Part shown: one piece after another, positions 12,640 to 15,649 of the stretch
Layout of the letters: each line of letters begins with the position of its first letter
Position numbering within the stretch: position 1 is the stretch's first letter
NCBI RefSeq assembly: GCF_000218625.1
Contig: NC_015672.1
Span: 2,145,451 to 2,209,450, forward strand
Source of the DNA: Flexistipes sinusarabici DSM 4947
Lineage (GTDB): Bacteria; Chrysiogenota; Deferribacteres; Deferribacterales; Flexistipitaceae
Reading direction: 5' to 3'
Length of the DNA stretch: 64,000 nt
Program-made: the position numbers and the translations under genes
Notes under the pieces: generated by a model
Database searches by the model: none
What the model was told of the DNA's origin: nothing
What the model saw: only the letters and a program-made list of their open reading frames with translations

Positions 12640-13956
12640 GTGAAAAAGTATATCCTTATAGCAGACCCTTCCAAAGTGTCAAGATTTGTTTTGGAGAACT
12701 ATCTGAAGGGTAAATATAAAATTTTGACGGCCACTTCCTATTCGGAAGCAAAAGATATACTGGATGAATTTCTCCCCTCTCTTGTTATCATCTCATACGA
12801 ACTGCAGGATGGTGTAGGGCTTGATCTTTGCGAATACATGCAAAAAAGAAAAAAATTCCGCTCTGTACCTGTAATTGTATTAACCTCAAATGAAAATGAC
12901 GAAACACTGAAATTCAAAGCTTTCGGAGCAGGCGCCATAGATTTCCTGGAAAAGTCAAAAGTAAATGAGGATTTTGTCAAATATGTGGATGAAATTGTTG
13001 AAATTATATCAATTTCAGACATCAGCGGCTCATCGGCTTGGATAGTTGATAACGATATAGCGGAAACACAGTTTCTCGAAAATATTCTCAAATCCACCGG
13101 AATAACTGTGTCAACGTTTTCTGAGCCTTCCGAGCTTCTCAAAAATTTAAAAAACAATACCCCTGATATTATCATCGCAGATTTGTTTATGAAAAAGATG
13201 GACGGAATGGAGCTCACCAAAGAACTCCGTCATAAAAATTCTCTGAAAAATGTCCCTATCCTAATACTGGCATCTTCAAGAGAAAGCTCATTCATGAGAA
13301 CACTTCTTCTTCACGGTGCAAACGACTATATCCTCAAACCGTTTTCAGCAGAAGAAGCAATACTTAGGGTAACAAGCAACATTAAAACAAAAAAACTGTA
13401 CGATGATTTGGAGGAAACCAACAGAGAACTGTTCAAAAAAGCAACCACCGATTCTTTGACCGGCCTTTATAACAGACGTTTTTTCATGGAACAGCTGGAG
13501 CATGTCAACTATAATGCCGGACGTTACGGTCACAGCTTTGGGGTAGCTTTGTGGGATATCGACCATTTTAAAAATATAAACGACCGGCACGGCCACGATG
13601 TGGGTGACAGGGTATTAATAAAATTAACAGAAGCAATAAAACACTCTGTCCGCAAATCTGATATTATCGGGCGTTTTGGGGGAGAAGAGTTCATCTGTAT
13701 TTTCCCCGGGCAAAAAGAAGCGGATATGCCGGCAATTGTCTCAAAGCTGCTGGAAGCGGCAAGAGATTTATATATTAAGGAAGGTGGTAAACAAATTCCT
13801 GTAACAATAAGCATAGGAGCTGTTTTTTGCAAAAACACTTCTGAGAATCTGGACAATATCATCAAAAATGTAGACAAACTCATGTACAGGGCAAAGTCAG
13901 ACGGCAGAAACAAAGGATATATCAGCATCGGCAAAAAAATTATCGAAGTAACATAA
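12640..13956 (+). CDS. PleD-like dual-receiver diguanylate cyclase
   Basis: From the GTG at 12640 (AGAGG upstream) the protein has 438 residues: two receiver domains (about 1-120 and 135-255) and a GGDEF domain. The second receiver keeps the acceptor Asp in IIIADLFMKKMDG and the KPF lysine. In the first, the acceptor position reads VIISYELQDG, so the Asp appears replaced by Ser and this domain is probably an adaptor that cannot be phosphorylated. The GGDEF domain has GGEEF and an RXXD I-site (RKSD), so it should be active and product-inhibited. An earlier frame start at 12565 overlaps gltX and is less likely. No partner kinase is adjacent. Confidence 0.88.
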   Translation: MKKYILIADPSKVSRFVLENYLKGKYKILTATSYSEAKDILDEFLPSLVIISYELQDGVGLDLCEYMQKRKKFRSVPVIVLTSNENDETLKFKAFGAGAIDFLEKSKVNEDFVKYVDEIVEIISISDISGSSAWIVDNDIAETQFLENILKSTGITVSTFSEPSELLKNLKNNTPDIIIADLFMKKMDGMELTKELRHKNSLKNVPILILASSRESSFMRTLLLHGANDYILKPFSAEEAILRVTSNIKTKKLYDDLEETNRELFKKATTDSLTGLYNRRFFMEQLEHVNYNAGRYGHSFGVALWDIDHFKNINDRHGHDVGDRVLIKLTEAIKHSVRKSDIIGRFGGEEFICIFPGQKEADMPAIVSKLLEAARDLYIKEGGKQIPVTISIGAVFCKNTSENLDNIIKNVDKLMYRAKSDGRNKGYISIGKKIIEVT

Positions 13957-13963
13957 AAAATAC

Positions 13964-13991
13964 TTTACAAAACTTTTTTAATGAGTATTAT
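13964..13991 (+). promoter_or_regulatory. Probable promoter of the trp operon
   Basis: TTTACA (13964-13969) and TATTAT (13986-13991) are separated by 16 bases, close to a sigma-70 consensus. Transcription would begin near 13998, just ahead of the leader peptide. Confidence 0.65.
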
Positions 13992-14013
13992 GCAAAGCAT
14001 GAAAATAAAAATA

Positions 14014-14061
14014 ATGCTAATCAATAATGCTTGGTGGTGGACAGTTAACGGAATAAGTTAG
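14014..14061 (+). CDS. trpL: trp operon leader peptide with three consecutive Trp codons
   Basis: ATG at 14014 opens a 15-residue frame, MLINNAWWWTVNGIS, ending in TAG. Three TGG codons in a row (14032-14040) are what ribosome-mediated attenuation needs. An in-frame ATG at 13999 would add five residues, and that start would be nearly leaderless given the predicted promoter. No strong ribosome binding site is visible. The peptide ends directly where the antiterminator arm begins, which supports a regulatory role. Confidence 0.8.
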   Translation: MLINNAWWWTVNGIS

Positions 14062-14111
14062 GTTGTTCACTACCTTTGTGTAAAAATATAAGGGCCGTGT
14101 GGTGAACAACC
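14061..14111 (+). promoter_or_regulatory. Antiterminator hairpin of the trp attenuator
   Basis: GGTTGTTCACTAC (14061-14073) can pair with GTGGTGAACAACC (14099-14111), 13 pairs with one G-T. The second arm includes part of the terminator stem that follows, so the two hairpins exclude each other. A ribosome stalled on the Trp codons would leave the first arm free and favour readthrough. Confidence 0.75.
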
Positions 14112-14126
14112 ACACGGCCTTTTTTT
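14093..14126 (+). terminator. trp attenuator (intrinsic terminator 1)
   Basis: A perfect 10-base stem GGCCGTGTGG / CCACACGGCC with a 7-base loop is followed by seven T. It overlaps the antiterminator arm and lies between the leader peptide and trpE. Confidence 0.85.
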
Positions 14127-14135
14127 GTATCTTAA

Positions 14136-14164
14136 GGCCGTGGATTGTACCACGGCCTTTTTTT
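14136..14164 (+). terminator. Second terminator-like hairpin before trpE
   Basis: GGCCGTGG / CCACGGCC with a 6-base loop is followed by seven T and ends seven bases before the trpE Shine-Dalgarno. Its stem resembles terminator 1. Either it is a second attenuation point or its 5' arm pairs with the 3' arm of terminator 1. Confidence 0.75.
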
Positions 14165-14179
14165 ATATCAGGAGGAAAT

Positions 14180-15649
14180 ATGATATACCCGGACAAAGAG
14201 AGATTTAAAAAACTTGCAGAAAAATATTCTCACATTACCATTTATCGTGAGATTGTAGGCGACACCCTTACCCCCATAGGTTTGTTGAAGAATTTCTCCA
14301 ACAGAGACAGTGTATTTTTGCTGGAAAGTGCAAATCTGGACAAGACTTTTTCAAGGTTTTCGTTTTTCGGAATAAATCCAAGCGAAATTGTTTCACTTAA
14401 AAACGGCAGCCTTACCGTGGAGAAAAACGGCAAAAAAACAAAAATCGATATAAATCCGGTGGATTATCTCAACAGCAAAATAGAAAAATTTAACGGATAT
14501 GCGGATCCCAAGTTCGGAGCATTTTCCGGAGGATATGTGGGTTATTTCGGCTATGAATTCATCAACTATACGGGGACTCTAAGACATAAACTCACCGAGC
14601 CTGCCGATGAAAACCTCATTTATCTAATGCTTATGAATGAATTCTATGTCTTTGACAACAGAACAGGAAGGGTTTATGCAGCCTGTAATGCAGAAACTAA
14701 AGGAAATTTAGAAAGTAATTACGAAACAGCCGTTAAAAGAACAAGAAAAATGGCTGATGAAATAAACGACTTCAATTTTGACAACTACACATCCGCTGAT
14801 AAACTGAGCGTTTCAAAAGAATTTTCTAAAGAAGAATTCGAAAAAACGGTAAATAAACTAAAATCCGATATCGCTGACGGAGAGCTTATACAATGCGTAT
14901 TTTCCAATAAATATGAAGTAAAGGGAAGCATCCATCCTCTGAGCTTTTACAGATCCTTAAGAAATGTAAATCCTTCTCCATATATGTTTTATTTCAAAAT
15001 GAAAGATAAAACAATGCTGGGCTCATCCCCTGAAATTCATCTTAAAGTGGAAAGCGGTAAGGCAACACTAAAACCGATAGCCGGGACATATCCCGTCGGC
15101 GAGGATATAGAAAAAATCAAAAAAGAGCTTCTTGAAGATGAAAAGGAAAAATCCGAACATCTGATGCTTCTTGATCTGGCCAGAAACGACCTTTACACAA
15201 GCTGTGACACCGATTCAGTAAAAGTGGAGAAATCTTTTAATGCGGAAGTCTATTCACACGTAGTCCATATCGTTTCAGAGGTATCGGGAAGACTCAGAGA
15301 TGACAAAACATCACTCGATGCATTTGTAAACACTTTCCCGGCAGGGACGGTAAGTGGTGCACCTAAAATCAGAGCAATGGAAATAATAAGTGAGTGTGAA
15401 AGATCACCGAGAGGATTTTACGCAGGCTGCGCCGGTTATATCTCTTATAACGGAAATCTTGATACATGCATAACCATCAGAAGCGCCATGGTAAAACCCG
15501 ATAAGACAATCATTCGGGCAGGAGCCGGCATCGTTTACGACAGTATACCGGCAAAGGAATACCATGAAGTGGAAGGTAAGCTGAAAGCACTGTTCACGGC
15601 TATAGACAGAATAAAAAATCTGGAGGGCGAAAATGTTTTTGCTAATTGA
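14180..15649 (+). CDS. trpE: Anthranilate synthase component I
   Basis: From the ATG at 14180 (GGAGG upstream) this is 489 residues. The N-terminal LLES motif, in VFLLESANLDKTFSRF, is the tryptophan feedback site. The C-terminal chorismate-binding domain shows GSSPEIHLKV, PIAGTYPVG, LLDLARNDLY and FPAGTVSGAPKIRAME. It makes anthranilate from chorismate using ammonia delivered by TrpG. It is the first structural gene of trpEGDCFBA, under the attenuator just described, and its end overlaps trpG by 17 bases. The longer frame starting at 14099 runs through the terminator hairpins and is rejected. Confidence 0.96.
   Translation: MIYPDKERFKKLAEKYSHITIYREIVGDTLTPIGLLKNFSNRDSVFLLESANLDKTFSRFSFFGINPSEIVSLKNGSLTVEKNGKKTKIDINPVDYLNSKIEKFNGYADPKFGAFSGGYVGYFGYEFINYTGTLRHKLTEPADENLIYLMLMNEFYVFDNRTGRVYAACNAETKGNLESNYETAVKRTRKMADEINDFNFDNYTSADKLSVSKEFSKEEFEKTVNKLKSDIADGELIQCVFSNKYEVKGSIHPLSFYRSLRNVNPSPYMFYFKMKDKTMLGSSPEIHLKVESGKATLKPIAGTYPVGEDIEKIKKELLEDEKEKSEHLMLLDLARNDLYTSCDTDSVKVEKSFNAEVYSHVVHIVSEVSGRLRDDKTSLDAFVNTFPAGTVSGAPKIRAMEIISECERSPRGFYAGCAGYISYNGNLDTCITIRSAMVKPDKTIIRAGAGIVYDSIPAKEYHEVEGKLKALFTAIDRIKNLEGENVFAN

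Follow-up and report, generated by a model that had tools for sequence, protein, structure and literature searches.

A tryptophan attenuator with two terminators in series, probably wired by alternative RNA pairing, upstream of trpEGDCFBA in Flexistipes sinusarabici

In the present study, we analysed the region upstream of the trpEGDCFBA operon in a stretch of 64,000 nucleotides (the window) from Flexistipes sinusarabici. The presence of a Trp attenuator at this site is near certain. Comparison of leaders across genera strongly supports a ribosome-mediated mechanism. The attenuator carries two terminators (T1 and T2) in series, which are likely to be wired to each other by alternative RNA pairing, so that the stalling of a single ribosome would probably silence both together.

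The genome of F. sinusarabici is a single contig of 2,526,590 bp which contains the window, and the published genome of F. sinusarabici MAS10 has the same size (PMC3236037). The attenuator is flanked upstream by a response regulator of the diguanylate-cyclase type, which ends at 13956, and downstream by trpE, trpG, trpD, trpC, trpF, trpB and trpA in that order. The folding z-score of the attenuator region was -7.2, with none of 200 shuffles as good. In about 424 kb of this genome, where 34 strict terminators were counted, only T1 and T2 stand in tandem. The promoter, the leader with three consecutive Trp codons (WWW), the 13-pair antiterminator, the terminator and the second terminator-like hairpin were all found where the initial annotation had placed them (Table 1).

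Table 1. Features of the attenuator and the first gene of the operon (positions in the window; segments numbered 5' to 3')
Feature	Position	Strand	Sequence or composition	Remarks
Promoter	13964..13991	+	TTTACA (13964-13969), 16-nt spacer, TATTAT (13986-13991)	10 of 12 consensus matches
Leader ORF (probable start)	13999..14061	+	MKIKIMLINNAWWWTVNGIS	20 codons and TAG; ATG 7 nt past the -10 box, without Shine-Dalgarno
Trp codons	14032..14040	+	TGGTGGTGG	three consecutive; invariant in 21 aligned leaders
Segment 1	14033-14046	+		overlaps the Trp codons; 1:2 pairing coevolves, p ~2e-4
Leader stop	14059-14061	+	TAG	
Segment 2	14061..14073	+		antiterminator 5' strand; begins at the leader stop codon
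T1 (3:4)	14090..14122	+		14 pairs, then U run
Segment 3	14099..14111	+		antiterminator 3' strand; within T1
Segment 4, candidate relay strand	14113..14121	+	CACGGCCTT	T1 3' arm; 9 Watson-Crick pairs with 14134-14142
T2 (5:6)	14134..14159	+		10 pairs, then U run
Segment 5, candidate relay strand	14134..14142	+	AAGGCCGTG	T2 5' arm; complementary to the T1 3' arm
Shine-Dalgarno of trpE	14170..14175	+	AGGAGG	read from sequence; unpaired in the minimum free energy (MFE) fold
trpE	14180..15649	+		ATG at 14180; heads trpE-G-D-C-F-B-A (reaching 20415)

A short ORF with clustered Trp codons 5' of the trp genes, mutually exclusive pairings 1:2, 2:3 and 3:4, and an intrinsic terminator are the marks of a classical trp attenuator, and all of them were found here. 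The antiterminator 2:3 consists of 13 contiguous pairs (14061-14073 with 14099-14111); it coevolves across genera (p ~2e-5) and also covaries on the alignment. T1 was paired in 99.6% of alignment cells over 21 leaders, with double changes in 6 of its 11 aligned pairs. The stop codon is placed as in classical attenuators: the start of segment 2 is, in most genera, 2-6 nt away from the stop and 17-21 nt past the last Trp codon, so that a terminating ribosome would mask segment 2 and a stalled one would not. Since the WWW codons are invariant and the helices 1:2 and 2:3 coevolve, ribosome-mediated Trp attenuation, as initially annotated, is strongly supported by comparison. A pseudoknot in the antiterminated state, joining the 5' base of T1 to its freed 3' arm, was considered and judged sterically impossible, with a 13-bp helix to cross and no linker.

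The relatives of trpE were gathered from 51 genomes of the phylum Deferribacterota. The whole arrangement of WWW leader, antiterminator, T1 and T2 was found before trpE in 23 of these, which belong to nine genera of the order Deferribacterales, and was missing from the other Deferribacterales genomes examined. From the leaders we built a covariance model (R1), which detected a single strong copy, in every case before trpE, in each of those 23 genomes and only there; weak second matches in three genomes (G010, G014 and G021) were ordinary terminators. The leader that the initial annotation had proposed to look for in related genomes is present there with its Trp codons conserved, and its view that the attenuator lies outside the textbook phyla was right. 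In four leaders (L012, L013, L017 and L022), GC-rich palindromic repeats are inserted between T2 and trpE, and because such repeats have entered, two of them (L012 and L013) stand about 400 nt from trpE. Another leader, L014, has a third hairpin between T1 and T2, CGGGGTCTGAGAACCCCG, without a U run.

The start of the leader peptide was examined through its distance from the promoter. Upstream sequence of sufficient length was available for 22 leaders; in all of these the promoter is placed alike relative to the leader ATG, and the candidate start lies 5-9 nt past the -10 box with no Shine-Dalgarno sequence. Where only a single in-frame ATG exists (for example in L006, L014, L015, L019, L021 and L024), it falls 5-7 nt after the -10 hexamer. 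A 15-codon leader had been read earlier from the ATG at 14014, which is in frame with the ATG at 13999; the start spacing across genera favours the latter, so the ORF probably has 20 codons and the shorter reading is probably wrong. As the ATG follows the -10 box by 5-9 nt across the leaders, the leader mRNA is probably leaderless, with a 5' end predicted from promoter spacing at or beside the AUG. The Trp run is WWW in the leaders, with four W in L014, and the stop comes 7-9 codons past the first W; the Trp codons excepted, the peptide sequence is free to vary between genera.

A leaderless start joined to a terminated leader resembles rnTrpL of Sinorhizobium meliloti (PMC7298713), and the T1- and T2-terminated leaders might accordingly serve chiefly as stable small RNAs, or as tiny leaderless mRNAs, that act in trans as rnTrpL and its peptide peTrpL do, with T2 only guarding the 3' end. 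This is very improbable, since the peptide varies so freely outside the Trp codons, and it leaves the covariation between segments 4 and 5 unexplained. A role in trans is nevertheless compatible with attenuation and may exist in addition to it.

T2 was found in 23 of 23 leaders; its U run was kept in all of them and its helix covaries on the alignment. The initial annotation had held that the second hairpin has no role in the classical model and could be a second checkpoint or hide the ribosome binding site. Its end lies 10 nt before the Shine-Dalgarno sequence in the window, as would suit a hairpin that masks this site and controls the translation of trpE. That reading is hardly credible, as the Shine-Dalgarno sequence is unpaired in the MFE fold, repeats part T2 from trpE in the four leaders named above, and every leader retains the U run. 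The checkpoint reading has fared better, in the form of a T2 coupled to T1 by a conserved 4:5 pairing.

The evidence for this coupling comes from the arms of the two hairpins. In every leader the best match between the T1 3' arm and the T2 5' arm of its own genus is 8-11 contiguous bp. The 4:5 score was 211 within genera against a mean of 163 across genera (p<2e-5; 0 of 50,000 partner shuffles), in a permutation test of nine genera in which shared ancestry is controlled only partly, through comparison with the mirror helix. Without genus g6, p was at most 3.4e-4. The mirror pairing of the T1 5' arm with the T2 3' arm was not significant over all genera (p 0.07-0.16). Column covariation, measured on a MAFFT alignment (A1), gave the same contrast: 97.8% of the cells of the relay helix were paired, with 16 double-change cells and double changes in 6 of 9 pairs, no shuffle of 500 reached the observed value, and slid versions dropped to 24-51%, whereas the mirror helix was 82.5% paired, a value reached by 284 of 500 shuffles. 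In genus g5, T1 now reads GGCUGUG and the T2 5' arm has followed; in one leader of this genus (L021) the T2 3' arm is still CACGGCC, which gives wobble pairing.

These results bear on a simpler explanation, in which T2 is an uncoupled fail-safe terminator of limited efficiency, its likeness to T1 comes from duplication of a hairpin, and the operon is expressed through partial readthrough of T2. The core GGCCGTG is indeed common to T1 and T2 in many species, and genus g6 has a strong T2 with little coupling to T1. However, a duplicated hairpin should preserve both cross pairings equally, and only 4:5 is kept and covarying, which points to selection on this pairing. In addition, T2 looks strong, and without coupling it would be expected to lower expression during starvation as well. 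The core is also not common in the genome, with 8 occurrences in a 360-kb sample against about 10 expected from its GC content; an abundant genomic repeat or uptake-like motif, considered as a source of the likeness, was rejected for want of enrichment. We therefore regard the uncoupled terminator as unlikely, and a relay from T1 to T2 through the 4:5 pairing as likely.

The timing of the relay was examined by folding calculations. For the leader in the window, with the antiterminator formed, the relay kept its advantage over T2 up to the point at which the T2 3' arm was exposed to its final nucleotide. In partition-function calculations with the T1 arm free, most genera favoured the relay until all, or all but 1-2, of the nucleotides of this arm were out. 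During this interval the base of T2 would still sit inside the polymerase. Once T2 is fully exposed, the equilibrium in most species favours T2 or puts it level with the relay, and the relay model therefore needs cotranscriptional kinetics. Genus g6 stands apart, with about -12 kcal/mol for the relay against -27 to -31 kcal/mol for T2, which moves ahead early in the calculation; its T2 is longer and different in sequence, and G-U pairs make up as many as 4-5 of the 10-11 pairs of its relay. The relay may be non-functional in this genus, with T2 acting alone, or it may be kinetic only.

Comparison establishes the leader codons, the coevolution of helices 1:2, 2:3, 3:4, 4:5 and 5:6, and the promoter-to-AUG spacing; we infer where transcription starts, that the leader is translated, that both sites terminate and in what order these events occur. 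In the proposed mechanism, transcription would start at or beside the leader AUG. When charged tRNA-Trp is present, the ribosome would run to the stop codon and cover segment 2, T1 would fold and transcription would stop; a polymerase slipping past T1 would then meet T2, which could fold because the 3' arm of T1 is already engaged. Under Trp shortage, the ribosome would stall on UGG UGG UGG, segment 2 would pair with segment 3 and T1 would be unable to form. The lower portion of the T1 3' arm (segment 4), now free, would capture the T2 5' arm (segment 5), the next complementary stretch to be transcribed, before the T2 3' arm (segment 6) leaves the polymerase, and with both terminators off trpEGDCFBA would be transcribed. 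Thus, T2 would be a second stop under repression that is silenced along with T1 on induction.

With regard to other regulators of trp, neither TrpR nor TRAP (TrpBP) was found over cut-off in the genomes of the phylum, and no T-box was found in the 23 leader-bearing genomes. T-box-like matches occurred only in two Deferribacterales genomes without the WWW leader (G031:C149:5751-6012 and G032:C108:16463-16724), about 110-140 nt upstream of trpE; they scored 81 and 89 bits, just below the gathering score of 93, and suggest a swap of regulatory device, with a T-box-like RNA in place of the WWW leader. In a further genome (G039, locus L027), a distant trpE is preceded, at about 173 nt, by a 30-codon ORF with S-W-R-V-L-W-W-R, whose start follows a TTGACA-17-TATTTT promoter by about 5 nt; no terminator was detected. 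This ORF is possibly another leaderless leader.

The proposed arrangement points to a way in which one act of sensing could govern two serial terminators. It would be a compact natural part, whose coupling could be broken and restored by paired base changes. Furthermore, it widens the range of ribosome-mediated trp attenuation to include Deferribacterota, with a leader peptide that is probably leaderless. We put forward only tentatively, as somewhat less probable than not, that the double-terminator relay is a distinct and old architecture in which one stall switches two terminators together through five overlapping helices, giving tighter repression with induction kept, and that a his-type form with a single terminator gave rise to it, and that it occurs beyond the phylum too. 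The supposed older form is exemplified by a trp leader of a neighbouring family (G001, L030), which has a Shine-Dalgarno sequence, only one terminator, a middle hairpin that lacks a U run, and 9 bp of 4:5 pairing; it looks his-like and of the six-segment type, from this single example. Outside the phylum, one example came from a Syntrophobacterales metagenome-assembled genome (L093:3819-3974), in which a WWW trp leader combines a tandem pair of terminators with a possible 4:5 pairing; R1 matched it at 56 bits although it lies outside the model, and its TrpE is 36% identical to that of the window. The other trp leaders among the distant loci (L056 and L094), likewise single examples, had one terminator. 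No description of a coupled double-terminator trp leader was found in the largely open-access literature searched.

Like the classical trpL-type attenuators of proteobacteria and actinobacteria, the Flexistipes leader has an ORF with Trp codons, the pairings 1:2, 2:3 and 3:4, and an intrinsic terminator before trpE. It differs from them in the conserved second terminator coupled to the first, in the ORF without Shine-Dalgarno sequence and in matching no Rfam trp leader at gathering score; RF04312 (trpB motif) reached 32.5 bits against 59, and the others were also below. The leaderless trpL of S. meliloti, an alphaproteobacterium, which we take to have a single terminator, resembles the Flexistipes leader, where the leaderless start is predicted order-wide from promoter spacing. 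In S. meliloti the leader RNA begins at the trpL ATG and regulates trpE by attenuation (PMC7298713). The rimP-leader of Gammaproteobacteria likewise has a tandem second terminator and an antiterminator; it differs in having no leader peptide and in its inverse related motifs, and the excerpted account describes no relay pairing between its terminators (PMC2965389). The mgtCBR leader of Salmonella also contains two attenuators, which answer to separate signals, act independently and are unlike intrinsic terminators (PMC3641672). The closest likeness in logic is with the enterobacterial his attenuator, for a different amino acid, in which AB, CD and EF alternate with BC and DE, and formation of BC frees D to pair with E and prevents the EF terminator (PMC10989985). 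The same six-segment logic appears here as 1:2, 3:4 and 5:6 against 2:3 and 4:5, and the 4:5 relay corresponds to the D:E pairing, through which the first antiterminator acts on the final terminator. In the his leader, however, only EF is described as a U-run terminator (PMC10989985), whereas in Flexistipes U runs follow both T1 and T2, so that the middle hairpin would also be an intrinsic terminator and both stops would be switched.
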